From positions 1-48,967 of IMG/VR virus record IMGVR_UViG_3300025168_000137: DNA of 48,967 bases. One strand, written 5' to 3'. The notes below the pieces were generated by a model. That model searched no databases. It was not told the DNA's origin and was given only the letters and a program-made list of their open reading frames with translations. Position 1 is the stretch's first letter. Each line of letters starts with the position of its first letter. This stretch comes from a virus. This document shows, one piece after another, positions 6,674 through 45,500 of this stretch. Both the position numbers and the translations under genes were made by a program.

Positions 6674-7204
6674 ATGAAATGGTGGGTATTTTTATTATTG
6701 CCCTTTTCCTTATTAGGTCAAGAAACTTATGTAAATTGTGGTGATTTAACTCCACAAAATTATCAAGTTAATTTTGATGCTGACAAGGTATATTATTGGG
6801 ATATTTCCGGTGGAATAATAACGTATAACAATGGTAACTCAATTACTATACAATGGCCTGATAGTACTGGTACTTATGTTATATCCGCATATACGACAAG
6901 ATTCGGTTGTGATGGAGATACATCATATTATGAAGTAAAAATAGAAGATTGTCCATATTTACAATTATTTATACCAAATTCATTTACTCCTAATGGAGAC
7001 AATTACAATGAAACATTTTATGTACATGGGGCAGACAAAGAAGAAATTAAATCGTTTGTTATTTACAATAGATGGGGCGAAATAATATATGAAGTTGATA
7101 ATAATACGCCATGGGATGGTAAAAATTGCCAAATAGGAGTATATTCTTACTCAGTTAGGACACATAACCAACACTTTACAGGAAATATACACTTAATAAA
7201 ATAA
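6674..7204 (+). CDS. T9SS cargo protein with type B (gliding-motility) sorting domain (176 aa)
   Basis: A short signal peptide (to about residue 15, LLGQ) is followed by one PKD-like module (YYWDISGGI, SITIQWPDSTGTY). The C-terminal domain from about 98 to 176 reads IPNSFTPNGDNYNETF, then FVIYNRWGEIIYE, PWDG, GVYSYSV and GNIHLIK. This is the gliding motility-associated C-terminal (CHU_C, T9SS type B) sorting domain. In Bacteroidetes this domain directs export across the outer membrane by the PorSS/T9SS. Such cargo is usually several hundred to thousands of residues, so this is a miniature form. The gene starts 1 nt after the previous stop. Confidence 0.85.
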   Translation: MKWWVFLLLPFSLLGQETYVNCGDLTPQNYQVNFDADKVYYWDISGGIITYNNGNSITIQWPDSTGTYVISAYTTRFGCDGDTSYYEVKIEDCPYLQLFIPNSFTPNGDNYNETFYVHGADKEEIKSFVIYNRWGEIIYEVDNNTPWDGKNCQIGVYSYSVRTHNQHFTGNIHLIK

Positions 7205-9748: not shown

Positions 9749-9918
9749 TGGAAAATATTTTAGAAAAATTAGAAACACTTATTGATGACATTGAAAGAGA
9801 TTCTCAATTAACAAGAGATGAAATAACTGATGCATTAACCAAATTAAAAACAGAAATTGAAGACTATCAATTAAAAAGAGAAGAAAGTAATTCAATTAAT
9901 TGGGAAGATTTGGATTAA
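9748..9918 (+). CDS. Small coiled-coil protein (56 aa)
   Basis: ATG 9748 overlaps the previous TAA (TAATG), and the frame ends with TAA at 9916-9918. The protein is highly charged and helical (MENILEKLETLIDDIERDSQ, then TKLKTEIEDYQLKREE), a clear coiled coil, and ends in WEDLD. It is the last gene before the tmRNA locus. No function is recognised. Confidence 0.6.
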   Translation: MENILEKLETLIDDIERDSQLTRDEITDALTKLKTEIEDYQLKREESNSINWEDLD

Positions 9919-9940
9919 TAATTAATCTTTTATATATATA

Positions 9941-10241
9941 AGTGATCGCTAGTAGTTATATTAGCTGCTTTTTTGGACGGGGGTTCGATACCCCCCACCT
10001 CCACTACATTTTAAATCTTAGGGGGTGACTGGATTTGACAGGAAGTAAGGATATAATGAAGATCAATGCATAATCGGCACACAGATTAAATCGGTGAAAG
10101 CAGGTACATTTGCTGCTTTAGCTGCAATCAGACTTCTGGCAACAGAAGAGGTTGTTGTTGAAGAAAATGTATTAGCTATGGCTGCCTAATTAGGCACCCA
10201 ACACCAACGGGTATAATCGGACACACATCGTTAAAGTTCTT
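9941..10241 (+). ncRNA. ssrA: Circularly permuted (two-piece) tmRNA gene
   Basis: The acceptor piece comes first. A 5-bp T stem GGGGG (9979-9983) and CCCCC (9991-9995) encloses the loop TTCGATA, then follow the acceptor strand CACCTCC (9996-10002) and discriminator A10003. CCA is not encoded. After an 17-nt spacer the coding piece starts with GGGGGTG (10021-10027), which pairs with CACCTCC over all 7 positions and places a G3-U70 wobble (10023/10000), the alanine identity element. ACTGGATTTGACAGG is the conserved tmRNA D-region. P2-like pairings join the pieces: ATATAA (10051-10056) with TTATAT (9956-9961), and AAGTA (10043-10047) with TGCTT (9966-9970). The tag frame from GCA 10139 to TAA 10187-10189 gives ATEEVVVEENVLAMAA. 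The exact resume codon and the outer ends are inferred. tmRNA with SmpB rescues stalled ribosomes and tags proteins for proteolysis. Confidence 0.9.
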
Positions 10242-10271
10242 GAGAGCAGCCCTAGGGTTGCTCTCCTTTTT
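10242..10271 (+). terminator. Intrinsic terminator of the tmRNA
   Basis: GAGAGCAGCCC (10242-10252) pairs with GGGTTGCTCTC (10255-10265) in an 11-bp stem with one G-U pair and a 2-nt loop region, followed by CTTTTTC. It ends the RNA gene cleanly and confirms that no further tmRNA 3' part lies downstream, as expected of the permuted order. Confidence 0.85.
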
Positions 10272-10304
10272 CATATGTATTTCTGTATATTATAATATTC
10301 GTAT

Positions 10305-11471
10305 ATGAAAAAAATCCTATTATTACTTTTAACGCTAATTACGTTAAATGTTTCGGCACAAGACACTATAGTGACTCCTTCTATTTTTACAAAAATAGCA
10401 GAAATAAATTTAGATCTTAAGACAGTAGAATGGAAACCTCTTTGGAAAAACATATCAAAATTTGCTACAGTTTATGGAGCTGTAAATGGAGGCACATCAT
10501 TATCTGACGTTGATGTTTATTCTGTTACTAATGGTTTACAAACACAAACAGTTCAAACTCCTTACGATTATTCTGTTATTTTAGGTGTTAGAAAAATAGC
10601 TAGAATGGGTTATGAACCAAAAGAAGCATTTAAAAATGGATTAGAAAATTCATTTTCAGATGCATCTACAATTGGTAAAGTGAAGGGATTTGAATATTTA
10701 TTTGAATTATCTTATGTAAGACAAGAAGGAGAAAATTACAATAACCAACACCACTTTTTACGATATATAGACGACACTTATATTCTTAAAGGAGAATATT
10801 TAGAAGATGGATTTGCAGACATAAAATATTTTGAAACTTCACAACGATATAGATATAAAGTAGAAAATTTTAAAGATATAATTCCAGATTTACCTGAGGT
10901 ATTTAAAAAAGGAAAATTATCAGTTAATATAGGGGCAGCTCAACGTTTATCTGAACCTTATGGATATGATCCTCTAGCAGAATGGCAATTATCAAATGGT
11001 AATTTACATTACACTTTTTTAGCATTAGAAGAAGGATATTCAGTTGATTTTACAAATCCAGAAGGTATTCAATATTTAGATCCTTCAGGTAATGTAGTTG
11101 CTACAAGTACAGAAATCTGGGAAGGGGTTGTTATCCCAACAGTATTATCCGATTATACGGAAAAGAAAAGAAATGAATTAGAAAACACAATCCAACATTC
11201 ACTTATTTTAGGTTTTGATTATTACCTTTACACTAAAAAATTATGGCTTCATTCATGGGGAAATTTAATGCCTTATCATTATGATAATGGTGGAGAATAT
11301 TCATACCACAAATACAATGGTGGTGAACAATGGTATGATTATTCAGGAGGATTAATTTTTGGGTATAAGTTAGACAAACATTTAGGTGTGTTTGTAGAAG
11401 GTAAATACAATAAATATTGGAACAGAGAATGGCATGACTTTTCTCTAGGTATAAATTATATATTATTTTAA
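10305..11471 (+). CDS. Putative outer-membrane beta-barrel protein (388 aa)
   Basis: A signal peptide (MKKILLLLLTLITLNVSAQ) is followed by a chain with many amphipathic, aromatic-rich strands and a final strand FSLGINYILF. A C-terminal strand ending in Phe is the recognition signal for outer-membrane insertion by BamA. The latter half (about 290-388) shows repeated strand-turn-strand patterns (SLILGFDYYLY, GGLIFGYKLD, LGVFVEGKYN). No named family is recognised. In a phage such a protein may be a receptor-blocking exclusion protein or come from host-derived cargo. Translation may start only a few bases from a TTCGTATATG promoter-like sequence. Confidence 0.65.
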   Translation: MKKILLLLLTLITLNVSAQDTIVTPSIFTKIAEINLDLKTVEWKPLWKNISKFATVYGAVNGGTSLSDVDVYSVTNGLQTQTVQTPYDYSVILGVRKIARMGYEPKEAFKNGLENSFSDASTIGKVKGFEYLFELSYVRQEGENYNNQHHFLRYIDDTYILKGEYLEDGFADIKYFETSQRYRYKVENFKDIIPDLPEVFKKGKLSVNIGAAQRLSEPYGYDPLAEWQLSNGNLHYTFLALEEGYSVDFTNPEGIQYLDPSGNVVATSTEIWEGVVIPTVLSDYTEKKRNELENTIQHSLILGFDYYLYTKKLWLHSWGNLMPYHYDNGGEYSYHKYNGGEQWYDYSGGLIFGYKLDKHLGVFVEGKYNKYWNREWHDFSLGINYILF

Positions 11472-12727: not shown

Positions 12728-15700
12728 ATGAAAAAAATACAGTTATTATTATTAACACTATTAATACCTTTTTTAGGTTATACACAAATTAATACATTTC
12801 CTTGGACTCACGATTTTGAAAGTTTTATAACTTTAGAGGAAGATACTACTGATGATGGAGATTGGTTATTAAAACAAGGACCAACTAGTTCTTTTAACAC
12901 AGGACCACAAGGAGACCATACAACGGGTAATGGTATTTATTATTATGTTGAATCATCTACGCCTAACTATCCAGGTAAAGTATTTACAACTTACACACCT
13001 ACATTCGATATATCATCTACACCAGGACAAGTAATATCATTTTGGTATCACATGTATGGATCTTCAATGGGAGATTTAGAAGTAGGTATAGTAGATAATA
13101 ATGGTTATCAGTTTTTAGATATTATCTCAGGTGATCAAGGTGATGAATGGCAAATTTATTATTCAGCAATTCCTGTAACCGATACTTTCAAAATACAATT
13201 TACAGCTACTACAGGTACTTTATATTATAGTGATATTTGTATAGATGATTTATATGTTGGTGATCCATTTACATTAGGTTGTATGGATACTGCTGCATTA
13301 AATTATAATCCATCTGCTGTTATAGATGATGGTTCATGTGCTTATCCTCCTTGTGGAGGATTTCTTACATCTAACGCATATCAAATGTGTTGGGGAAGTC
13401 AAGCAGCAATACAATTTGAATGGACAAGTGATACAGCACTTTCACAATGTGATGTTATTGAAATACATGTAGGTGATGAAAATGGTTGGTCTATGATGTA
13501 TGGAGGATATTGGCCAGCTTCAAATGGTTTAAATGGACATGCAGTCGCAGTTGGTAATGGACAAATGCCCCCTAATTGGTCTGTAGAACATTATGCAGTT
13601 TTAGAATATGATGATGGAACATTATCAGACACTATATTTTATACTCCTACATCTTGTATTCCAGGATGTACAGACCCAACAGCTATATCTTATAATCCTT
13701 GGGCTACTACTGATGATGGTTCATGTGGTGGTACAAATTGTGATCCAGTTACAGAACAACAAGTTACAATGACAATCAGATTAGATAATTGGCCAGGAGA
13801 AACGTCTTGGAATATGGTTACTAATGCAGGGTCAAATGTTATTACTCCTCAAGGAACATATACTTTTAATGATATAGGTGTAACTTACACTTATAATTTT
13901 TGTGTGTCTTCAACAGCTGGTTTTGAATTTATATTAAATGATTCATATGGTGATGGATTAGCAGGAAATGGTACTCCAGGAGCCGCAGGAGAAGTAGTTA
14001 TATATGACTGTAACGGAGATACTATAACATATCTTACATCAGGAACTTGGGTAGATGGGAGTCAAAATCCAGTAGGAGTCAATTTTGGGACTGTAGCTTA
14101 TTCAGGGGCTCAAAATGGAGTAGCTTGTGCAGGACCACCTACAATACCTGGTTGTTTAGATCCAGCATATCAAGAATTTGACATTACAGCTACTATAGAT
14201 GATAGTTCATGTGTTAATTTACATACATTTGGTTGTATAGATCCTTCGTCATTTAATTATGATGCATCAGCAACTAAAATGGATATAGTTGATTCATGTA
14301 ATTATATTTTAAAAATAGAAGATGATGCAGCAGATGGTTGGGGTAATTCATATGTAGGAGTTACACAAGGAACTAATACTTGGACATATACAATGGGGCC
14401 AGGAAATTATGTTCAAAATTTCCCATTAAATTTAGAAACAGACAAACCAGTTACTGTTTATTATTTTGAGATTCCTAACGCACAAAATCCAGACCCACAA
14501 CAAACTACTTTCCAAACAATGCAAAACTCATTTACATTAACAAATGCAGATGGAGTTGTATTATTAGAAGAAGGAACCAATCCTTTTGCAAATAATGGAC
14601 AAGGAGCATTACAAGGATTTGCAACCCCTTTCTGGGTAACATACACAGCAATGCCTTATTGTGGTGATTATTGTATCCCAACAATATTAGGTTGTATTGA
14701 TATAATTGCATTTAATTATGATTCAACAGCAAATACGGATGATGGTGGTTGTATTCCCGTTATTACTGGGTGTACAAATAGTTTAGCGTTTAATTATGAT
14801 TCTTTAGCTAATACTGATGATGGTAGTTGTGTATCAATAATAATTGGTTGTATGGATTCATTAGCGTTTAACTTTAATCCATCTGCTAATACAAATGACC
14901 AATCATCATGTATTCCAGTTATATTAGGTTGTATGGATGATACAATGTTTAATTATAATGCAGCTGCAAATACGAATGATGGAACTTGTATACCAGTTAT
15001 GTTTGGATGTACAGATATGGCTGCCTTTAATTATGATCCAACAGCAAATACTAATAATGGTTCTTGTATACCAGTAGTATTTGGGTGTACTGATCCAACA
15101 ATGTGGAATTTTGATATAAATGCTAATATTGATAATAGCTCTTGTCTTCCATATGTTTATGGGTGTACAGATTCAACAGCTTGGAATTATGATTCTTTAG
15201 CTAATACAAGTGTAGGGTGTATTCCTTTCTATTATGGTTGTACAGATCCTACAATGTTTAACTATGATCCAAATGCAAATACAGATGATAGTTCTTGTAT
15301 TCCTTATATATTAGGATGTAATGATATCACTGCTTTAAATTATGACTCAACAGCAAATGTAAATACAGGGTGTGTTTATCCTATTTTAGGGTGTACTGAT
15401 CCAACAATGTTTAATTATAATCTTAATGCTAATGTAGATGATGGTAGTTGTATAGCTTTTGCTTATGGATGTACTGATATAACAGCTTGGAATTATGATT
15501 CATTAGCTAATACTAGTGTTGGATGTATCCCCTTTTCTTATGGTTGTACAGATCCTTCAATGTTTAACTATAATCCTTTAGCCAATACAGATGATGGTAC
15601 ATGTTACCCAATCATACTTGGTTGTATGGATACTTCAGCATTTAATTATGATCCTTTAGCTAATACAAATTTTGGTTGTAATCAAGTATTTTTAGGTTGT

Positions 15701-16849
15701 ACTGATGTTGCTGCTTTTAATTACAATTATTTAGCAAATGTAGATAATGGGAGTTGTATCCCCGTTGTTTTAGGTTGTATTGATGTTAATGCTCTTAATT
15801 TTGATTCTTTAGCTAATACAAATGTTGGTTGTATTTATCCAATACCTGGATGTACAGATCCTTCAATGTTTAATTACAATCCTTTAGCAAACGTAAATAA
15901 TGGTACATGTATTCCTGTAATAATTGGTTGTACAGATCCAACAGCATTAAACTTTGATTCAACTGCTAATACTAATAATGGTTGTATATATCCGATTTAT
16001 GGATGTACTGACCCAATAATGTTTAATTATGATCCATTAGCTAATACTAATGATGGAAGTTGTATCCCTTTTGTTTATGGGTGTACAGATGTTACAGCCT
16101 TTAATTATAATTCATTAGCAAATACTGACAATGGAAGTTGTATTCCAGTAGTATTTGGGTGTATAGATTCAACAATGTTTAATTATGATCCCTTAGCTAA
16201 TACAGATAATAATTCTTGTATACCATTTATTTATGGTTGTACTGATATTACAGCACTTAATTACAATTCAAATGCAAATACATTAGATAATAGTTGTTGT
16301 TATATAGGAGGTTGTACAGATAGTACGGCAGTTAATTATAATCCTTTAGCTTGTTTTGATGATAATAGTTGTATAATAGCAATAGTAGGATGTACAGACG
16401 TTTCAGCTTACAATTATAATCCACTAGCTAACGTAACAGATTCTACTGCTTGTTTATATGATGCAGGTTGTTATGGAGGACCTGGAATACCATATTGGTT
16501 AAATGATGGGTGTTATGCTTGGGTAATAGATGTTGATGATTTTTGTTGTACTAATGATTGGGATGCTTCATGTCAAGCAATGTATGATTATTGTCAATTA
16601 GGATGGCCTACAGCAGTAGAAAATATTTCATCATTAGGGATAGTTGTTTATCCTAATCCTACTAAAAATGTAATAACTATAGAAACTAGATTAGAAATTA
16701 AAATAGAAGTATATGATATAATGGGTAAATTATTAATTAAAGAAGAAAATACTAAACGTTTAGATCTATCAGATTTATCAAATGGTTTATATAATCTATC
16801 TATTATATATAATAATAAACGATATAATAAACAAATAATTAAACAATAA
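12728..16849 (+). CDS. Large secreted repeat protein with MAM-like domain and T9SS type A sorting domain (1373 aa)
   Basis: A signal peptide (MKKIQLLLLTLLIPFLGYTQ) is followed by a MAM-like domain (about 25-178: WTHDFESF, FNTGPQGDHTTGNGIYYYVE, ISFWYHMYGSSMGDLEV). The chain then carries 27 copies of a roughly 26-residue repeat of the type GCTDPTMFNYDPLANTDDGS-C. Four copies are scattered between about 183 and 520, and 23 are contiguous from about 655 to 1246. A Cys-rich module (CCTNDWDASCQAMYDYC) precedes the end. The last 70 residues (from VVYPNPTKNVITIE at about 1304, then YDIMGKLL, LSNGLYNLSI) are a T9SS type A sorting domain. Cargo of this kind is exported to the Bacteroidetes surface. The Asp/Asn-rich loops may bind calcium. 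It is probably an adhesin or surface coat protein. Confidence 0.85.
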   Translation: MKKIQLLLLTLLIPFLGYTQINTFPWTHDFESFITLEEDTTDDGDWLLKQGPTSSFNTGPQGDHTTGNGIYYYVESSTPNYPGKVFTTYTPTFDISSTPGQVISFWYHMYGSSMGDLEVGIVDNNGYQFLDIISGDQGDEWQIYYSAIPVTDTFKIQFTATTGTLYYSDICIDDLYVGDPFTLGCMDTAALNYNPSAVIDDGSCAYPPCGGFLTSNAYQMCWGSQAAIQFEWTSDTALSQCDVIEIHVGDENGWSMMYGGYWPASNGLNGHAVAVGNGQMPPNWSVEHYAVLEYDDGTLSDTIFYTPTSCIPGCTDPTAISYNPWATTDDGSCGGTNCDPVTEQQVTMTIRLDNWPGETSWNMVTNAGSNVITPQGTYTFNDIGVTYTYNFCVSSTAGFEFILNDSYGDGLAGNGTPGAAGEVVIYDCNGDTITYLTSGTWVDGSQNPVGVNFGTVAYSGAQNGVACAGPPTIPGCLDPAYQEFDITATIDDSSCVNLHTFGCIDPSSFNYDASATKMDIVDSCNYILKIEDDAADGWGNSYVGVTQGTNTWTYTMGPGNYVQNFPLNLETDKPVTVYYFEIPNAQNPDPQQTTFQTMQNSFTLTNADGVVLLEEGTNPFANNGQGALQGFATPFWVTYTAMPYCGDYCIPTILGCIDIIAFNYDSTANTDDGGCIPVITGCTNSLAFNYDSLANTDDGSCVSIIIGCMDSLAFNFNPSANTNDQSSCIPVILGCMDDTMFNYNAAANTNDGTCIPVMFGCTDMAAFNYDPTANTNNGSCIPVVFGCTDPTMWNFDINANIDNSSCLPYVYGCTDSTAWNYDSLANTSVGCIPFYYGCTDPTMFNYDPNANTDDSSCIPYILGCNDITALNYDSTANVNTGCVYPILGCTDPTMFNYNLNANVDDGSCIAFAYGCTDITAWNYDSLANTSVGCIPFSYGCTDPSMFNYNPLANTDDGTCYPIILGCMDTSAFNYDPLANTNFGCNQVFLGCTDVAAFNYNYLANVDNGSCIPVVLGCIDVNALNFDSLANTNVGCIYPIPGCTDPSMFNYNPLANVNNGTCIPVIIGCTDPTALNFDSTANTNNGCIYPIYGCTDPIMFNYDPLANTNDGSCIPFVYGCTDVTAFNYNSLANTDNGSCIPVVFGCIDSTMFNYDPLANTDNNSCIPFIYGCTDITALNYNSNANTLDNSCCYIGGCTDSTAVNYNPLACFDDNSCIIAIVGCTDVSAYNYNPLANVTDSTACLYDAGCYGGPGIPYWLNDGCYAWVIDVDDFCCTNDWDASCQAMYDYCQLGWPTAVENISSLGIVVYPNPTKNVITIETRLEIKIEVYDIMGKLLIKEENTKRLDLSDLSNGLYNLSIIYNNKRYNKQIIKQ
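14690..16465 (+). repeat. Protein-coding tandem repeat, 23 contiguous units of about 77 nt
   Basis: The block encodes uninterrupted copies of a GC-D-FNYD-AN-DDGSC-type unit. Unit lengths vary by one or two codons (for example forms with ANTSVGC lack two residues), and the DNA between units is diverged. The array is old or under protein-level selection, not a fresh slippage product. Alternating unit types are visible: TMFNYDPLA and TAWNYDSLA or TALNYDSTA, which suggests that an early unit of two repeats was amplified. Confidence 0.85.
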
Positions 16850-31765: not shown

Positions 31766-33561
31766 TGTTAAATAAGAATACACTAATAGAAAAAGGAGAA
31801 TCAGCACTTCCAGTAAAAGTAGTTAAATTTAAAGGGGCGACTGAGAGGATGGTTACATCTAATGGAACGCAGGGCCATGTTCATCAATTTGTAGTGTATG
31901 AAGATGATACAGTTGAAATATTTGAGCATCTTTCACAAAATAACCAAACAGGAGAAATAACTTCTCACACACACGAATATGTAGGAGAATATCCTTATGG
32001 TTATATGTTAGAAGAACAAATAAAAGGAATTCATCATATACATAAAATAGGTAGTGTATCTCATCCCATTACAATAAAAAAAACAGTATATAGTAGTAAA
32101 TCTTTAAATAAAGTTATAGATAAAGGTTTTTCTGAATTCCACGAATCTAAAGGAAGTGATGAAGTTGATTTAAAAAAGTTTTGGAAGGATCATGCAAAAG
32201 TTTTTTATGCAATTCCTAAAGAAGGATCTATTGATTCACATGAATATTTAATAAAATCAAGTCTAGATCATTATAATAATTACCAAGATGAAAGAGATGA
32301 AGAAATAATAGAACTAACAGAAAGAATAGCTGAATTAGAAATAGAACTAGCTCAAACAGATGATTTAGATAAAGAGCATCCAATATTTAAAAATGGTTCT
32401 TTCTTAAAACAACCTGATAATCCTACAATTTATTATATGGATCAGGGTAGAAAAAGAGCAATTAAAAAATTTGATACTTATCTTATTCTTAAAAGAACAC
32501 AAGGCCATCTTGAAGAAACTCCAGACGAAGAAGTATACATATTAGTTACTGAAGATGTAGTTAAAGGAATACCTTCAGGTCCTGAATTCCAAAATGAAGA
32601 TCTTTATGGAGATGAAGAAGAAAGAAAACAAGCAGAAGATAAAAAAATAATACAATTAGATCCAGACGACTTTATAGCAGATCCTTCTAATTACCCAACA
32701 GTAAATGATTATATAGCTGCTTTAGATAAAGAAACTCGCCAATTATTAGCTAAAGAAGAATATTTAGAAGGCCTTAGATACAGATATCAACGTGATCTAG
32801 GAGCAAGAGGAGCAGTAGATTTAACTCCAGATGAAAAAATAAGCGCACAATCTAGATTAAACGAAGTAACTCCAGATTTATTAAAAACTAGACGTACTAT
32901 TATAAGATACACAAAAATATTAGAAAAAGTAGATCCCGATGGAGATCTTAAAAACTTAACAATAGATACTAGTAAACTTAAAAATATAGTAACAGGTGAA
33001 ATGGATAAAAAAGTTACTAGTGAAGAAAGAAATAAACTTATAGGTAAAAATCTTATTGACAGATTTATTAATCGAGTAAAAAACTCAGATAAAAAAGCTC
33101 AAAAAGACTCCTCTTCACCTTCTTCCCCAGATAATATATCAACTTCTTCAGCTTTAGGAATGGCAGGAATATCTGCACCTGGAATGCAAGGATTAGCAGG
33201 AGAACCACAACCAAAAAGTCCACCATCCGGATTTAGAGCTAACCCTAGTAATTTATTAAAAAATGATAGTATAGGAGAAGCAGGAAAATTAATGAGATTA
33301 GGAGTAAGTTCTCCTAAAGGAGATTGGTATTGGGGATTAAAATATATTAAAAATACAGATGAAACACCAAAATTAGAAAATGGTGTTTATAAAAGATGGC
33401 AAGATTGGAGACCATCTATAGGAATTCCTATAAACCCACATACTAAACCAATTTCTAGGTATTTTTGGAGTGAATCTAGATTTGAGTGGATACCAAAAGC
33501 AGGAACTTTTGGAATAAAGGATAGATATTGGCATGGTAAAAAAATAGATAGTATGAGATAA
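31765..33561 (+). CDS. Tail/baseplate protein with HxH motifs (598 aa)
   Basis: Residues 38-40 (HVH), 68-70 (HTH) and 90-93 (HHIH) form three histidine pairs in a beta-rich N-terminal domain. Metal-binding HxH pairs are known from phage fibre and spike tips. Residues about 180-320 are charged and helical, with a Lys/Glu coiled coil. The Ser/Pro-rich linker (SSSPSSPDNISTSSALG) leads to a Trp/Tyr-rich C-terminal domain (GDWYWGLKYIK, WQDWRPSIGIP). Function is unknown. It sits in the gp7-like position, and its stop overlaps the next start (TAATG). Confidence 0.55.
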   Translation: MLNKNTLIEKGESALPVKVVKFKGATERMVTSNGTQGHVHQFVVYEDDTVEIFEHLSQNNQTGEITSHTHEYVGEYPYGYMLEEQIKGIHHIHKIGSVSHPITIKKTVYSSKSLNKVIDKGFSEFHESKGSDEVDLKKFWKDHAKVFYAIPKEGSIDSHEYLIKSSLDHYNNYQDERDEEIIELTERIAELEIELAQTDDLDKEHPIFKNGSFLKQPDNPTIYYMDQGRKRAIKKFDTYLILKRTQGHLEETPDEEVYILVTEDVVKGIPSGPEFQNEDLYGDEEERKQAEDKKIIQLDPDDFIADPSNYPTVNDYIAALDKETRQLLAKEEYLEGLRYRYQRDLGARGAVDLTPDEKISAQSRLNEVTPDLLKTRRTIIRYTKILEKVDPDGDLKNLTIDTSKLKNIVTGEMDKKVTSEERNKLIGKNLIDRFINRVKNSDKKAQKDSSSPSSPDNISTSSALGMAGISAPGMQGLAGEPQPKSPPSGFRANPSNLLKNDSIGEAGKLMRLGVSSPKGDWYWGLKYIKNTDETPKLENGVYKRWQDWRPSIGIPINPHTKPISRYFWSESRFEWIPKAGTFGIKDRYWHGKKIDSMR

Positions 33562-36500
33562 TGGAGAATATAAAAATAAATAATATTTCAAGAATAGATG
33601 TTAGAGACAAAGGTAAGATTGTTTCTAAAACCCAACAAAGAAAATTTGGTAAAATAAATGACTATATAGAATTTCATATATTTGATATGGGGGGGACTTT
33701 ATTATATTCTATAGATGATTATGAGGATTGGCAATATCCAGAAATTTTAGATACCCAAACTCCAAATTTAACAAATACTATATTTGTTGATCCTACTAAA
33801 AAACTTCAAGAATTAGGATTTAACCAAGGTCAGTATTCTTGTGTGTATAATTTACAAAGAAAAAAAATATTAGATACTTTTGCTAAATTCTTTTACATTA
33901 AAGAAATCTCACCATCTAGAACAGAATTAAAATTATATTCTGAATCTTATGATGATGAGCAAATTCAATCAATGGTAGAAAGATACATGAGTGAAATTGG
34001 AGCTTCTGGTTTTGAAAGAGATTTTATACTTAATTTTGGGGGTAATAAAAATATATTAGGAATTAATATAGCATATAGTTTAAAAGAAAAATGTGTATTA
34101 ATAAAATTATATGAACCCCTTCCAGAAGATGTAGAAGACAACGCAAATTTAAGAATATGTGAAGATGTTATAGATCCATTAGAATTTGTAATAGATTTAG
34201 GAACTGCTGCTCCTGATGATCCAAATATAGCTATAAAAGGACCCAACTTTAGAATAGATACACGTTTAAATGATTCTGTTCCTTCAGCTTTTAAAACATA
34301 TAATAGTTTTTTAGAAGGAGCTAATTCAGCTTCATTATATAATGTATTAAGTCATTTAAGTGAAAGTGTAAAACTATCAGTAGATTTTACAAAAACAGGT
34401 ACTGGTTCTTTAGAAACAGGATATCATTTTGAAAATTTTACTCATTTTGGTAGTGCAGAAGAAAGATTAAGAAATTTTAAATATAAATTAAGTTTAGTAG
34501 AATTATACGAAGCCCAAATAGAAGACATAGGAACAATAACAGGAACTATATCAACTTCAACTGCTGTTATAAATAATAGAAATACCATAGAATCAAAAAG
34601 AGCTAAATTAATTAGTAGTTTTGATAATTATGAAAAATTCTTATATTATGAACACCATCCTTATGCTTGGCCTAAGATTCCTGATTTTGGTATAGGAAAC
34701 CTACAATTAACAGGATCAGTTGCTCTTGTACCCTCTTCTTCATTTATGGTAGTAGGATTAGATGATTGTGATGTATTTGTTAAACCTTTTAACTTGTATC
34801 CTACAACATCAGATGAAGCTGTAGAATGGTTTGGTAATCTAGATGAATATAGCACAGAATATGGAGGACAAATATTATCAGCTTCTAGATTTGATAGAGA
34901 TAATGGTTATAATTTACAAAAAACATTACCTCAACATATTCTTGAAAGAGAAGAAAATGAACAATATGTAACTTTTACTAATATGATTGGTCAATATTTT
35001 GACCAAATATGGATATATATAGATCATGTAAGTAAAATAAGAAATGCAAACAATTCCTTTACTGAAGGAATATCAAAAGATTTAGTATTTACTGCATTAC
35101 AAAGTTTAGGAATAGAAGCTTTTGATCAATTTGAAAATGAAGAATTATTTGAATATATAATAGGAACTTCTAAAACAAAAACAGGTGCTTTTGGAACATA
35201 TGAAGCTCCTCCAGGTCAAGAAATGATAACAGCTGACGTTGTTAAATGTGATCATGGAGGAAGTTCAATACCTAAGGGAGATATAACTAAAGAAGTATGG
35301 AAAAGATTATATCATAATTTACCTTTTCTTTTAAAAACTAAAGGAACAGAAAGAGGAATTAGAGCATTAATGAGTTGTTATGGAGTTCCAGAAACTATAT
35401 TAAACATAAAAGAATATGGAGGACCTACAACAGATGAAACAACATATAAAACTTTTAATTATGAAAAATTCTCATATACTTTACAAGGAGACTCTGGAGC
35501 AAATGGATTTTTTATAGAATCTCCTTGGTATGTTGATGATCCTGCATTCACAGGAGTATCTGTAAGTCAACCTGGTAAGGCAAAGGGACAAATAGTATGT
35601 TCAATGGGTACTATTGGTGAAAATTTTGATCAACCTTTTCCAAAAACAATAGAATTAGAAGCAACTGATGGGTCTACTCATATATTTTCATCAGGTATTG
35701 AATTTGAAATACATGCACAAAGTGGTTTAGAAACAGCTCAAAGTATAACAGCTTGTATAGATGCACATCCTTTATTTAGTGCTTCTTTAGAAGTACCTAA
35801 TGATTTATTCCATTATAATCATTATGAATACAATTTAGATCTAGTAATAAAACTAGAACAACATTTAATGGGAATAGAAGGTAATACACCTATAGAAGGT
35901 ACTTTCTTTGAAGATATGACTACTCCTGCTTGTGGTAATCCTCAACAATTCCCACAAGTAGAATTTTTAACAAAACATGATTTTGGATCGGGGGGGCCTG
36001 AAGACGCAGGAGGAGGAGCTAATAATTCTACTTCAGTTACAACTGTAGTTCCAGGAACAAATTCATGTGATAGTAAAATTTTAATACAAAATGGTATAAA
36101 ATTTGATGGATCTGGAACAACGGTAATTAATGGAATAGAAACATATGGTTTATTTCAAGATGAAGAGGGGTTTTTAGATTTTGTAACTGATTGTACAAAT
36201 GGGTATTGTAGTCACGATATATCTACTTTTAGTTTTGAATCAGTAAATCCTACAAAAACTCCTTTATTTTTAGGAGAAAAACAATGTACAGGGGTTAATG
36301 ATTACGGATTATTTGTTTTAGAATGTTTTGAAGTAGACCCAACATGTGTAAAACACTCAAACGCTAAAGGAGGCTCATGTAATGCAAATTTCACTTTACA
36401 CGTATCAAACGCAAATGTAGATATAAACTTAACAGCAGAACAATTAATTGATTATCTCTTTATGGGGGATTCAGGAACTTCTAATATTACTAATGACTTA

Positions 36501-39500
36501 TTATTAGCAATACCTGGTGCAGAAGGAGCTTTTATATGGGATGAGAATCTAAACACATATAATGGAGATATAAATGTTTTAAATAGTTCTGAAGATGGAG
36601 GTGGAAATATATATTGGAGTAGTCCAAGTATTAATGCATCTGCCTACTTAACAGGATTAGAAGTAATAAATTATTTAAGTTCAAATTGTGAACACACAGG
36701 AGGAATAACAGGAAATTGTTATAAAATATATAATAATTTTATAAATGAATTAAATACTGCAGGATATGAAAATCCTGCAATACCTGGAGTAAATACAGAT
36801 ACTATATTTTCAGAATTAATAACTCCAGATGTACTTACAGAATTTCCACCTTCATCTTCTTGTGGGTGTGATGATTTTACTGTATTAGATGGACCAGGAA
36901 AAGAAGCAGATGCCCCATTATATTTTCCAAGTTCAGGTGGAGAAGGAGGTAATCCAGCAACAGGGGGTGTATCGTGGTGTAATGATGATAGTTTTGTTAG
37001 TATATATAATGGTTTAACAGTAATATTAGAAGATTCATCTGGAACAACACATACATTTACAATATCAGGAAGTAGTAATATAGATCAAGCCCAGAATTTA
37101 GCAAATGATATAAATGCTAATAATAACTTTAATGCTGTATATGATGATCAAGGGGGAAAAAATATACTATGTTTAATATCAACAACAGATGAATCATTAG
37201 CAGCTAATACTCCAATAACAGGTACTCTTATGAGTTATATTACTGGAGGAAGTCCTGAAACACCTGGACGTAATTGTGTAGATGCTTCTCCTGGTAATAC
37301 TAGTACTTATGGTCTTACAGGAGGGACAGATGGTACAATTGATACTTGTACTAATGATTTAATTGGAAAAACATTAATATTACAAGATATTAATGGAACA
37401 TTACATACTTTTACAATAAATGGTAATACTGTTTTAACACAAATACAAAACTTAGCAAATGATATAAATCAAAATTCAGAATTTAACGCTTACTATAGTA
37501 CAGGACCAAATAGAGTAGAAATATCACAAAACCAAGTAGGAACAAGTGGAAATACTCAAATGTCAGGAACATCTACATTACAACAAAATGCTAGTGGTGG
37601 TCCTTGTATTTATACTCAATTATCTCCACTTAAACGGGAATTTACAGGGGGAACAAATGCTGGGGCAGGTGGTGGAACATCTACATCAACACAATTACTA
37701 CAAGTACCACCAACAGTAAACTCAACATCTACCCTACAAAATGGAGCTCAATCAACAGTTTATGGTAAAAATGGAGCTAAATTTTTTGCAGATCCACTTT
37801 CATCAAACTTCCATGGTAATATTACAAATACGTATTTTGGAAATCCTTCTCAAAATACAAGTGATGGAAGATTAAACCAAATAGGGGTATGGGATGATAC
37901 AGATACTTATAATCCTAGTGGTGGTAATACTCAACTTATGAATCCATTAAACCAATGGATAGGATTTTCTGAATGTATAACAGTTCCTGCAGATGGAGAA
38001 TATTTAATAGGACTAGGAGGGGATAATAGAATTAGATTTCTTGTTGATGGTGAAATAGTAGTAGAAAAAAATTCAGATGCAGGAGAAAACTTTAATAATT
38101 GGTGGGTATATAAAATAAACCTAACAGCAGGAGACCATGTAATTAATATGGAAGGATGGAATTCAGGACAAATAGCATCTTTTGGGTGTGATATAGTTGG
38201 TCCTTTTCCTTCAAACACATTTATAGATGAAACTATTTTTAGTAATGTAGATAGTGGAGGGGTAACTATTGATGGAACAACTTATACTAATTTAGAAGAT
38301 TTATACACTCAAAATATAATATTTAGCACTGAAGGTATTGGATCTTCAAATACTGATACTTGTACAGGTAAAACAGATACAGGAGTAATAGGTGTAGGAG
38401 CAAGTGCAGCTTTAATGCAAATGTCTCATATCTCAACAAACAACCCAACATTAAATTTTGATACCTTTTTATATGGTGATACCACAACATCAGGAACACC
38501 AGATGTTTGTATAGATGGGAATAGAAGTGCAGAAAACTTATTTATAACTCATATTACGATAGATGCTTTAACCAACTCTACTTATGCTTCTATAGATGGA
38601 AATACTTATTATAATTGGGAAGCTTTAATAACAGATATAGAATCTATATTAGGAATTACTCTTACTGGACCACAGCGTACTTTTGCTAATGTAGAATCTG
38701 AGGTATTTGGAGAAGGACAAAATATTTATGTATACACAGATTATTGTCTTTGCACAACTTCAGTTGGGGGAGGAGAATTTAATACATCAACAAATACATG
38801 TGATGAAAATGACGGATACTTTTACAATGAATGTACTGGTTTTTGTGAAAAAACAACAACAACAACAACAGTAACTCCAACAGGTTGTGGTCTTATACAA
38901 AATCCTATAGGGAATGGAACATTCCAAAATTCAACTGAATTTTTAGATTATTTTACTACATATTCTAATGGATTTTATGGGTATAATATTGATGAATATT
39001 TTTATGAAACTTTTGAACCCTTACCAAATAACGAAACAGTAGAAAGTCCTTGTTTGGGACCAAACAATGGATATATAAGAAGGGTTATGGGCTTTAAAAA
39101 AGATCCAAATGTCATACCTTTTGATGATACTTTATATATTAATTACCAATCATTTTTACAACAATTAAATGCAGATGGTCATAATGTAGAAGAAGATGCA
39201 AATAGTGTTAGGTTTTCTCTTTTAACAACAGCTTTAATATTAACAGAAGCAGAAGGACCTTGTGATAGTAAAACATTAATTTTAAACCCAGCAACAAGTA
39301 ATGGGGCTTTTGAAGGAGATGCAATATCTCAAATAACTCCTATACAAGAGTTTATGGATTATTATTCTGATATTAGTACATCTGATCCAACTTTAGGTAA
39401 TCTTCAAGATATAGATATAAATACTCTTAAATTTAATATCTCAGAAGACTCACTAAATCAGATACTCCAAGAACAATGTCCTATAGATGCATCAATATAT

Positions 39501-42500
39501 TGTTTTTATGATGGTACTTCTATGACTGTTAGCCAGGCTACATCAGCAATGCAAACTGTAGAAAATTGGGTAGTTCAACAAGGAGCTGCATTTACAGGAC
39601 AAGTTTATCATATGATTTCTTCTCATGAAAGATGGTTAGATATAGCTAGATTACCTTTTTCAAATATAGGAAACTATTTACAAAATGCTTTTGAAGCAGA
39701 TGGTTTTACTCCTTCAGCACAAGGATCAGGTTCTATTAGTACGTGTTATAGTACTAATGATACTATATCAGCTGCCCAACCTTGGGATGAAAGTGCTGAT
39801 CTTGAGCAAGCTTCAGGCCATAATTGGTATGTACTTCCTATGGACACAACATCAGATGGCCGAGCAATATCAATAAAAAACGAGGTATGGACTGGTGGTA
39901 ATACTATAACAATAGGAGGACAAGCTGTACCTTTAAAAGATATAATTAATGATGGTTTAGGATTGTATGATGATCATGCTCCTAACACAACCTCAGGATT
40001 ATCAGGAGAGGGTAATGCATGGAGGGGTCCAGCACCTTCATTAGAAAACGCAACTGATAAGGCTTTATGTTTTAATTTCTATGATGAGTCAGGGGCACAC
40101 ACAACTGACCAAGATCAATATACAGGTTTTGCATCCTCTATCACTCCTACATTTGCTGATATTAGTTGTACTCAAGCAGAAATTGAAGGAAATAAACAAG
40201 GAAAAGAAGTTTGGAGAAGTGATTATGAATTATATATTCACACATATTTAGAAACTGTAGATAGATCTGCGCCAGAATATGAAAACCAAGGAGATTTGAT
40301 TCATATGATGTATCCTTCAGCTCCAGTAGGATTAAGTTCAGGTGGTAATAAATTGCTAGGAGCAGATGGATCAACTTATTTTTACAAATCACAATTAGCC
40401 TTCCCCCTACATGTGTTAGGAGCAATATTAACAGGTAGTGTGAATGAAAATCCAGGTATGTTAGAACCTAGCCATGAGATTTTACTACCAGGGGCTAATA
40501 GAGCTATAAATCTTGATGCTTTAAATGGTTATTTTGGAGTAAATGTAAACCCTTATTGTGGAGCAACTTGGGCATATACGGCGGGACAAGGAGAATATCC
40601 TGTAGGATATGACCCACAATATGGATATGGTGGTTTACAACAATATGGATGGAATGTAACTGAGGAATCTATTAAAGAAAACCCACTTACACAAGTAGAA
40701 CTTGAGAATGCTATAGATATTGTAGTAGGAGAAACATTATGTGCTGATTGGGAAAGTGATATAGGTGTATCAGTAATAACATGTAAAGAAGATGATGGAT
40801 TAGGTAAAGGAACATTCAATTATACTTTTTCAGTAGATAATTTCTTTATAGATCCTTTAATAGATCCAAACCAAACACCTTTTACAACATATACAGGTTT
40901 TATAGATAGAGCTATAAATTTAGGAAATTCAGTATCTTTAAGTGATGATTGGACAGACACAGAAATAGGAGGAGATATAATAGCAGACGAATGTTTATGT
41001 GCTGAAGAATGTCCTGATACTTTAATAATAAATGATAATACAGAAATAACAATAACAGGTTCCTCTCTTACAAATATTTTTAGTTTAAATGAACCAGTAA
41101 ATCAACCTAACAATGGAAGTTTTAATGCTACTATTATAGAAATAAATTCTGGAACTGATGATATAGCAATTATAATAGATATAACTAGTGGTACTTTAGA
41201 TAAAGAATTAGACATTATAGGAGATACTAGTGGTGCTGTTTTAAGTTCACTAACAGTAGATCAATTTAAAGTAGAAGGATCTACTCAAGATGGTTTATTT
41301 GAAATAGGAGAATCAGTAACTCAATCAGGTAATGGAGGTTTAATAGCAACAATAAAAGAACTAACACCTAATCAACTTATAGCAATCCCCCCAGTAATAG
41401 TTTTAGAAGTAACAGCAGGAACTTTAAGTAGTTATGGACAAATATCAGGAGGAACATCAGGAGCTACAATAAATGAACCCTTTATTATAACTCCTTTTGG
41501 AGAACATATAATTCCTTTACCACAAGGAGCTTTTGCAAGTCTTGATCATTTTATGGATTATGTTTCAATAGATCCAACCTTAAAAACAACTGATATAAGT
41601 ACTTTAAAATTTGAATTAGCTACAGAATACACTACAACAGTAAAAACATCATCTATAGCTTTAGAACCAGGAGGAATATGGTATGTTAAGGGAACTAGTT
41701 ATATGTACCCAAGTCGTAATATTTTCCCAAATTTAATTGGGGGTTATGGTGATGGAGAACCTAACGCAGGATATTATGGTGGTTTAGGAGAAGCACTTTC
41801 TTATACAGTATATGCAAACGAAAAAATAGGAAGTTTTCAAGTAGGAGAAGAATTAACCCAAGTAGGTAATTCAGGATTAGAAGCTGTAGTAGGACATTTA
41901 TTTTCTCATCCACATTATGGAGATACATCAAATTATCCTAATACAGATCTTCAATTTATGTATAGAATAATTATATTTTTATCACCTTCTTCATCTCCTA
42001 TTGATATAAGTAGTAATGAACCTTTAGTAGGATCTTCTACATCAGCTCAATTTGGAGACCCTAATATAACAGGTATTCTTTATTATGGTAGTGCTGAAAA
42101 TTGTATATTAGCTACTCAAAATAGTGTACATTTGGGATATGGAGGACCATACCAATATTCTACTAGTCACGCCGGAGATCTTTATACCCAAGCAAATGCA
42201 GGAAAGGCAGATTCTACACACAGAATAGATTTACCAATAGAATCAGATATAATATGGAATTTTGATGGTAATAGTAATACTTCATACGATAAAGCCATTC
42301 CAAATACTGGTGGTAGATCTTCTACCTCTTTAAGAGGTCCATGGGCGGAACCAAATACTGATAATCAGATGAATGGAGGATCAAAGTGGAATCAATCCGT
42401 ATATATAGATTCTGTAGTAGCTCATCGTGAACAATTAAAAATAGCATGGGAATGGTATGGACAAAACAATCCATCAGCTCGACCATGGCAAATGCCTTCA

Positions 42501-45500
42501 AGTACTAATATTTTAAAATATTTTTCAGGAATAGGATTTAATAGTGATAAATCTAATGATCTTTATGGAGGACCCGGTTTTTATAATTCTACAATTCTTT
42601 CTTCGGATATGGATTATCAAACTGATAAATGGGAAGGTGTAGATTATGGTATTAATAATCCAGATTATTGGTTAGATTGGGATGGAGATGGTGATGGTGA
42701 TTTACAAGGAAGACGTCATATAGATTCTAAAATAATAGAATGCCCTGCTGTAATGAAAGGACCAACAGGAGGAGCTCCTAACTCAGGAGGAGGATATGCT
42801 ACTCCTCACTACATTAGATTATATGGATATGATAATTCATTTTATGGTTATAATAAATTTTATACTGATGGTACAAATAATGGAGGACCATGGATACCTA
42901 ACCCACAAAACACTAATAATATTGAAAATTATGAAAGCAAAATAGAACCTAACCATGATTGGAGTAGTAATTTAACATCCATTCCAAATAATGGTGTATC
43001 TCATCAAAATATAAAAACACACACAAATTATGCTTATTATGATTTAATTGCAACAACTTCATGTACGGTATCAACTCAATGTCCACCTGGAGGAGGTGGA
43101 ACAGCAGCACTTGATAATTGTACTTGTGATGAAGCATCTGGAGGACAAAGTATGGGTACCACACTACCTAAAACATGGTATTCTTGGGAAAATTTAATTG
43201 ACGATATAAATGCAATAAGAGGAGACGCAGCAATAATGGCGGCTACTGTAGGATCACAAAGTGCACAACCTGCTTTTCCTTATGCAACTCCCTTTAATGT
43301 TATAGAAAATGAATTATATTATGTACAATATGGTGATTCACAAATTGGAGACCATACACGACCAGGATTTCTAGATAAAAATGATATCTCTCCAGCTCCT
43401 TCACCTAAATCAAATGCTCACAATCTACATTCATACCATTCAAATCACCCAAACAAAGAATATGAATTTTATATTGATCTAGATTCTTCAGCAACACCCC
43501 AATGTATTGAATTAGAATCTAATAATGAAGTAAGTGAAACTACAAGTATAACTTATGATGTAAATAATTTATTATGTTTAGGACCAAATTCAGCTTTAAG
43601 AAATAAATATGGATTGTTTACTATTCAAGGATTTTATCAAAATTCAATAATAGATCCATCATCAACAGTATATGAATACCCAACAGATATAAATTATTAT
43701 ACTACTTGGTTTGATTTTTTAAATGCTAAAATATCAGAAATGGGACTAACAGGGGAACATTGGGACGAAAATTGGGCAGGAAGTTCAGTAGTATCATCGG
43801 GTACTGATTTATCATTATCCTCAACATACCATGAAACAACAGCATCTGTAGAATTAGCTAATACACAATACCAAACAGGAGGAGAAGATATAATTACTAC
43901 AGAAAACATATTCCAATACTTTCCTTTTAATAATGGTGGGGGAGGAGTAGAAAGTCCTTATTTCTCAGGAGTTGAAGATAATGCTGATCCTTTTGCTTTT
44001 TGCGATTGGTTGATTCATGGTACTCAAATTACAATAAATACACAGGCACAAGGAAATGTAGTATGTGCACTCCCACCAACTAATGGTCATTCTACTAACA
44101 TTTCTGGTTATTTTTATGTGAATACTAGTTATGATAATACTACAGATCATGGAGGTTGTACCTGTGGTCCTCTTGAAGCACAACCTGCAGTTCTTAGAAA
44201 TAATTTACCTCCAATAACCCCTTTTAATCCAGGAAATAATAATTGTAGTGGAGAAGGTATATTTGTAAGACCTTCAAACATCTATGTAAACACAGACTAT
44301 ATAAATGAAACTAATGGTACTAGTTGGATAGAGGGGATAACAAATGGAGTGACTAATGCAGTATATGCTAATTGGGAATCATTAATAAATGCCTTAATGA
44401 TATTACACGAGGATCCAATTAATGGTTTTGGGACCCCTTGGTTAATAAATGGTAATGTTGTTACTTCAGATTTCTCTACAGTTCCTTTTATGGATGTAGT
44501 AGATAATATGTGTCCTGATCCAACTAAAAGAGGAATGGACACATCTAAATTATTATATATCACAGAATATAAAGCAACATGTGAAGACATACCTGGAGAT
44601 ATTATACAAGCACCTATAACAAATAACCCTAATATTATGGCTCCTTTAGTAGGCCAAATAGATGGAGCAGCTTGTAAATGTGCAGCTATAGCTTCAGGAG
44701 GAGATCCACTACCAGGAGATATAGAATTTGAAGGATGTACATGTTGTCCTGCATCTTCATCAATAGAATATGGATGTCCTGTACCAGGACCAATAAGTAG
44801 TAGTAGATGTGAGTGTGTATTACCTACATATACTACAGTAGTAACAGAAATACCCCCAGAAATAATTACAGACTGTCATGTAACAGCATCTTCGAAAACA
44901 ATAGAATTTAGAATAAACCCTAGAAGATTAGATGATGCTAGAGGACTTTCGCCTATTCAATTATGTTGTGGTCCAACAGGAAGTGCACAAACTAATATAC
45001 ATTTATTTAGTTTATATAATCCAAACTTCCCAGGAAATGATCCTCATTTATTATTAACACCTTATGTAGGTGCTGATATTTCATCTTCAAATGATTATAA
45101 ACAATGGGGGTCTTTAACATTAACAGTTAATGGAAGCGTAAGAGCTACATCAGAGTTATTTCCCGCATTTAATGGAGATTTTTGGAATATATTTATAGGA
45201 ACTGAAGGAAAATCAGGAAGTGCTGATTTTGTAGACTTTGGAGCTTATCAATCAAATTTCTTAGGAAATGTTACTTATACAACATCTTCAGCCTTATTTA
45301 GTGAATATGAAAGAGCTGTAACATTTGGAGACGCAGCTAATAATTGTGATAATACAACTCCTGCTACACATGCTTATTTTGGAGGACACCCACATGCAGC
45401 AGAAGCGTATTCAGGATCATTCCAAGAAATAAAATTCCACACAACAGAATATTTAACTCATGATACTCTATTAAAACATGCACTTGACCCTTTTCAATAT

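Follow-up and report, generated by a model that had tools for sequence, protein, structure and literature searches.

The 48,967-nucleotide stretch of viral DNA analysed here (the window; IMG/VR record IMGVR_UViG_3300025168_000137) carries a circularly permuted tmRNA gene, as shown by its gene order and pairings. The 5' piece is preceded by a T arm (5/5 bp) and an acceptor 3' strand (7/7 bp), giving an arm geometry of 12/12 upstream versus 7/12 for the best arm downstream; the arm-geometry scan found nothing comparable to a second T arm or acceptor 3' strand downstream of the 5' piece. Permuted tmRNA has been described from three bacterial lineages. Taken as a whole, the locus is likely to be a working, phage-borne permuted ssrA derived from a Bacteroidota-type one-piece gene; its processing, charging, origin and part in rescue and degradation are inferred.

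The Rfam covariance model for permuted tmRNA (RF04321, tmRNA_permuted) matched positions 9943-10189 with 75 bits (E 1.1e-12), above its gathering threshold of 47 bits, and the standard tmRNA model (RF00023) reached 28.8 bits, under its cut-off. ARAGORN also called the gene permuted ('tmRNA*'); the gene ends it reported (9912-10399) are a misread and its tag (GHTSLKFL...) comes from the wrong location, and both were rejected. The RF04321 score was dropped as sole proof of permutation, because genes reading as one-piece tmRNAs score 47-65 bits with this model. Since the model is not specific by itself, we tested the geometry directly in 119 loci that share the 5' motif, a number that includes duplicates. 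The upstream arm was 12/12 in every window-type gene, whereas in genes classed as one-piece the downstream arm was 12/12 and the upstream arm never above 10/12. The features of the locus are as follows.

9943..10003, + strand: acceptor piece (RF04321, arm geometry, covariation)
9943-9947, 9955-9962 and 9968-9973, + strand: P2 strands of the acceptor piece
9979-9995, + strand: T arm, with T stem 9979-9983/9991-9995
9996-10002, + strand: acceptor 3' strand, followed by discriminator A73 at 10003
10004..10020, + strand: intervening sequence, 17 nt, presumably removed (distance from arm to 5' strand)
10021..10065, + strand: coding piece, 5' part (RF04321, arm geometry, alignment, covariation)
10021-10027, + strand: acceptor 5' strand GGGGGUG, with G3 of G3-U70 at 10023
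10026-10041, + strand: D region UGACUGGAUUUGACAG
10040-10045, 10050-10057 and 10061-10065, + strand: P2 strands of the coding piece
10067..10088, + strand: small pseudoknot at the tag start (covariation in 22 loci)
10067-10069 (UGC) with 10077-10079 (GCA), + strand: small pseudoknot, stem 1
10071-10075 (UAAUC) with 10084-10088 (GAUUA), + strand: small pseudoknot, stem 2
10076..10189, + strand: probable tag reading frame, 37 aa, from resume codon GGC (10076-10078) to stop UAA (10187-10189)
10184..10195, + strand: H5-like hairpin GCCUAAUUAGGC, containing the stop codon (read from sequence)
10207..10239, + strand: 3' pseudoknot (pairing in relatives)
10207-10210 (ACGG) with 10228-10231 (UCGU), + strand: 3' pseudoknot, stem 1
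10219-10222 (GGAC) with 10236-10239 (GUUC), + strand: 3' pseudoknot, stem 2
10243..10271, + strand: terminator-like hairpin (about 10243-10265), then a T-rich stretch (read from sequence)

CCA is not encoded; A10003 is followed by CUA. The intervening sequence measures 16-21 nt in most window-type siblings, many of which have H5-like hairpins akin to that of the window, and a hairpin like the terminator is also present in siblings with long tags and in L078.

Pairing between the two pieces, through the acceptor stem and P2, is supported by covariation. In an alignment of 22 related loci we followed 39 proposed pairs, spanning the three cross-piece P2 helices, the T stem, the acceptor stem and the two stems at the tag start. 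Among these, 97.7% of cells were paired and both-side changes were observed in 87 cells, compared with 21 in shuffles. The paired fraction dropped to 40-50% in slid controls; the pairs were picked by inspecting the same sequences, which biases these controls somewhat in their favour, and the double changes carry more weight. The U-G pair of the acceptor stem (G3-U70, the alanine identity) is invariant in 22/22 sequences. The second stem of the small pseudoknot is 100% paired in the 22 loci, with both-side changes at two pairs, and that of the 3' pseudoknot is fully paired in 19/19 relatives representing eight sequence types. Altogether, these results bear out the structural claims of an initial annotation made from sequence alone: a T arm and acceptor 3' strand (9979-10003) upstream of a 5' half at 10021 (geometry and RF04321), a perfect 7-bp acceptor stem with G3-U70 (7/7), P2-like pairings between the halves (covarying across the 22 sequences) and no second T arm downstream. 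The strong terminator it described is present as a terminator-like hairpin, by reading only. It had proposed a covariance-model search as a check, and the pattern that would have refuted it, a match to the downstream half only, was absent.

The permuted form is not unique to the window virus. A pattern scan of IMG/VR gave 28 stretches with the same permuted layout; the counts there are at least 18 window-type loci with 10-residue tags and 7 with 37-residue tags, and some 20 permuted loci of lower similarity, with the same motif, have longer spacers. The annotated SsrA (2467-2799) of the cultured Maribacter phage Panino (L235, PP540027.1) is also permuted ('tmRNA*' by ARAGORN); the Panino paper reports ssrA without mentioning the permuted form (PMC11590407). 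The search of phage genomes for the same locus that the initial annotation had suggested thus found relatives in IMG/VR and a permuted gene in Panino. No match to the same tmRNA or tag was found in named phages. RF04321 gave no match across 50 contigs sharing the T9SS-type protein, though it missed a partial long-tag copy at the contig end of one of them, L014, and the gene is therefore not universal in the group. In L149 (4786-4860, - strand) and L159 (4462-4536, + strand), the tmRNA intervening sequence is about 90 nt long and contains an intact tRNA-Ala (TGC) gene; such an arrangement has been called unique to one nominally archaeal case (PMC11915505).

The window gene also appears to encode a long tag, which was absent from the initial annotation. 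Read from the GGC resume codon it is likely to be 37 residues, GTQIKSVKAGTFAALAAIRLLATEEVVVEENVLAMAA, for which there are no protein data. The corresponding frame of a sibling, GGC GAA CAA GUU GAA AUG GCG AUG GCU GCC UAA, gives GEQVEMAMAA, a tag of 10 residues. Bacteroidota host tags with the same UGGCGAA start are GETNYALAA in L105 and GESNYALAA in L122, and GETNYALAA was also found, by reading, in Bacteroides finegoldii (L173). The bases at -4/-3 of the GGC are AA in 22/22 sequences. We take GGC as the resume codon because the host tags start at the matching GGC and this AA is invariant. The codon sits within the small covarying pseudoknot. The window tag ends in ...LAMAA followed by the stop, a hydrophobic degron-type end with the stop in a hairpin.

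An alternative that we initially favoured places the resume codon at GCA 10100-10102, leaving a tag of 29 residues in the window and of two (Ala-Ala) in short siblings, with the pseudoknot as an ordinary PK1 11 nt upstream of the tag. In its favour, the pseudoknot would take the usual position ahead of the tag, the spacer does not vary in length and two-residue tags have already been published (PMC11915505). Against it, host genes begin at the equivalent GGC, the AA at -4/-3 of GGC never varies, and the sibling codons ahead of GCG are AUG, CUA or UUA, conservative substitutions if translated. The host-tag comparison and the invariant AA led us to demote the GCA start, which we now consider unlikely, in favour of GGC.

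With GGC as the resume codon, the tag has 37 codons in 7 loci (the window counted as L001) and 10 codons in 18; a further, partial long-tag copy lies at the contig end of L014. A Por_Secre_tail gene is present in every long-tag contig tested (the window, L002, L010, L060, L075, L149, L159 and L074, the last truncated inside the tag). The closest syntenic relative, L078, has flanking proteins 73-90% identical to those of the window, yet its tag is of 10 residues, while the more distant relatives L002, L010, L149 and L159 have 37-codon tags. The locus has therefore seen a switch in tag length, in an undetermined direction. Across the long-tag copies the frame is open and its length constant. Amino-acid constraint, unlike the open frame and constant length, is not demonstrated by the codon test for the window-type tag (pN/pS 0.72 in frame versus 0.58 in the +1 frame; stops in the remaining frames). 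It is clearer in a family of one-piece phages with tags of ~35 residues, of which FpV4 is a cultured relative; there the codon test is positive (pN/pS 0.42 in frame, last 29 codons).

The virus is marine and of Bacteroidota type, the latter judged by sequence-based host indicators. The ORF at 6674..7204 (+) carries a CHU_C type IX secretion domain (Pfam PF13585, 49.8 bits), and that at 12728..16849 (+; 1373 aa) carries MAM (PF00629, 71.6 bits) and Por_Secre_tail (PF18962, 47.9 bits) domains. The baseplate protein shares 45% identity with its counterpart in Flavobacterium phage immuto. This match is ambiguous, since the score of a Microcystis phage record is as high (47%), and the host phylum therefore rests mainly on the T9SS domains, which support the Bacteroidetes-type phage of the initial annotation. 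The window also has one ORF of 4352 aa (33561-46619). TATATTTAT elements at 1541, 16870 and 27850, each 26-44 nt ahead of an ORF, may possibly be a phage promoter; the element also precedes several sibling tmRNAs, but not that of the window.

As to the origin of the permuted gene, the initial annotation had left open independent permutation or transfer between distant lineages; the former is the likelier, although it is not proved, Bacteroidota genomes being unsurveyed. The window and the one-piece tmRNA of Bacteroides finegoldii share an identical D region, UGACUGGAUUUGACAG, and the D spacing of the window, from the acceptor stem through GAC, is 12 nt. Permuted genes of alphaproteobacteria have D sequences such as AAAUAGGAUCGAC, a spacing of 13 nt in 26/26 parsed, a different T loop and an encoded CCA. 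The RF04321 consensus and three cyanobacterial/beta-like viral genes have the D region UGGUUUCGACG; the cyanobacterial and beta comparison is limited to these, with no such genome knowingly sampled. The Bacteroidota-group D regions were read directly and left out of the automated tally. Window-type tags open with Gly, as in Bacteroidota hosts. Independent permutation is favoured because the D region, 12-nt spacing, unencoded CCA and GGC match Bacteroidota one-piece tmRNA. Scored against the traits of each lineage, the window gene meets neither those of the alpha lineage (alpha D region, T loop, encoded CCA) nor those of the beta and cyanobacterial genes (UGGUUUCGACG-type D region, 13-nt spacing, encoded CCA). 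It meets those of Bacteroidota one-piece genes in its D region UGACUGGNUUUGACAG, 12-nt spacing and GGC resume codon (few host genes were compared), but not their unpermuted order.

Two other histories were considered. In the first, the permuted gene came from alphaproteobacteria, betaproteobacteria or cyanobacteria, and drift or recombination later brought it closer to Bacteroidota sequence. In favour of this, marine phages infecting those hosts commonly carry permuted tmRNA genes (PMC9004378), and the phage genes exceed the cut-off of a model that is based on those three lineages. Acquisition is nonetheless unlikely: D sequence and spacing, unencoded CCA and the Gly resume codon all fit Bacteroidota one-piece genes, and the T loop differs from that of alpha genes. 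In the second, the permutation is an old bacterial one, with some Bacteroidota chromosomes carrying a permuted ssrA that phages took up. This is unlikely but remains possible, as Bacteroidota genomes are unsurveyed and a Bacteroidota-like sequence would be equally expected. Against it, the Bacteroidota host genes L105, L122 and L173 are one-piece, and the sole bacterial-genome match to the window-type pattern is a misbinned phage contig. That contig, CAJQJC010000010.1 (L083) of a Pelagibacter MAG, was rejected as a bacterial gene and judged a Bacteroidota phage fragment; it is nearly identical to L002 across the tmRNA and has phage-like genes. The motif itself occurs in only 3/150 genomes of the phylum of this MAG, one of them being the phage contig, a scarcity that counts toward independent permutation. 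The tRNA-like domain offers too few positions for a reliable tree, and whether permutation took place in a virus or a bacterium, and how many times, is unsettled in the absence of a Bacteroidota genome survey. Independent permutation thus stays the favoured reading. A bolder one joins it to the other findings: a fourth lineage, independently permuted from Bacteroidota one-piece tmRNA, in Bacteroidota phages, with the first pseudoknot enclosing the resume codon and a switch between 10- and 37-residue tags at one syntenic locus. We lean slightly against all of this holding together; if it did, the phage would alter the fate of tagged proteins.

The proposed working of the gene has no RNA or protein data behind it. 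One transcript would contain the acceptor half, the 17-nt spacer and the coding half. RNase P would cut at 10021, and 3' processing and CCA addition would follow A10003, all by host tRNA enzymes; this follows the accepted view of how two-piece tmRNA matures (PMC3985003), and the tRNA-Ala inside the L149 and L159 spacers is consistent with it. Pairing in the acceptor stem and the long P2 helix would keep the two RNAs together, and host AlaRS would charge the molecule through G3-U70. With EF-Tu and SmpB of the host, the latter presumed because no smpB was found in the 49-kb fragment, the RNA would serve during infection to rescue ribosomes that stall on broken mRNAs, adding Ala and a tag, probably of 37 residues ending in LAMAA, that would target the product to the AAA+ proteases of the host. 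The gene most likely derives from a one-piece ssrA of Bacteroidota type that was permuted independently of the alpha, beta and cyanobacterial genes. As to the purpose of the long tag, one can only guess at an altered interaction with proteases or adaptors of the host. Alternatively, the RNA could be a decoy that blocks host trans-translation, as an RNA of phage DS6A with only the tRNA-like domain inhibits endogenous tmRNA in E. coli (PMC11915505). We consider this very unlikely, since the tag frame and both pseudoknots, needless for a decoy, are retained across diverged relatives.

Among known systems, the window gene shares with the permuted tmRNAs of RF04321 (alpha, beta and cyanobacteria) the gene order, the join through acceptor stem and P2, G3-U70 and reduced pseudoknots. 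It differs from them in D region, D spacing, CCA, Gly resume codon, the probable 37-residue tag and the resume codon within the first pseudoknot, and from the alpha genes in its T loop. Bacteroidota one-piece tmRNA (B. finegoldii, L173) resembles it in D region, 12-nt spacing, GGC, unencoded CCA and a hydrophobic Ala-Ala tag end, but is unpermuted, about 390 nt long and has a 9-residue tag. The Panino gene is likewise permuted and from a Bacteroidota phage, with a closely similar D region, but has another spacer and tag. Permuted, phage-borne tmRNA has already been published for phage Melnitz and other marine phages (PMC9004378); these two-piece genes differ in being of alphaproteobacterial type according to the authors, with OM43, SAR11 and cyanobacteria as hosts. 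FpV4 and its relatives share the Bacteroidota phage setting and a long tag, but their tmRNA is unpermuted and the tag, of about 35 residues, unrelated. A 2025 tmRNA database lists 79 phage tmRNAs (PMC11915505), and in the open-licence literature searched we found no description of permuted tmRNA in Bacteroidota phages.

A further case, of Bacteroidota type and carried by phages, would show that permutation recurs, and would make it possible to set permuted against one-piece forms in phages that infect a single host phylum. At 35-50 residues, tags in Bacteroidota phages are at or beyond the range of 8-35 quoted by a review (PMC3968760); such long tags make phage reprogramming of protein tagging and turnover during infection directly testable. 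One-piece tmRNAs with tags of 35-50 residues are found in the Bacteroidota-type phages L085, L086, L134, L139, L147 and others, and in FpV4 (L236), a phage of F. psychrophilum in whose record the gene is unannotated. Finally, an unannotated stretch of Acinetobacter phage BUCT628 (H67, MZ593728.1; 39485-39576) fits the RF04321 consensus from the T arm through the 5' piece, and this phage may possibly carry a permuted tmRNA as well.
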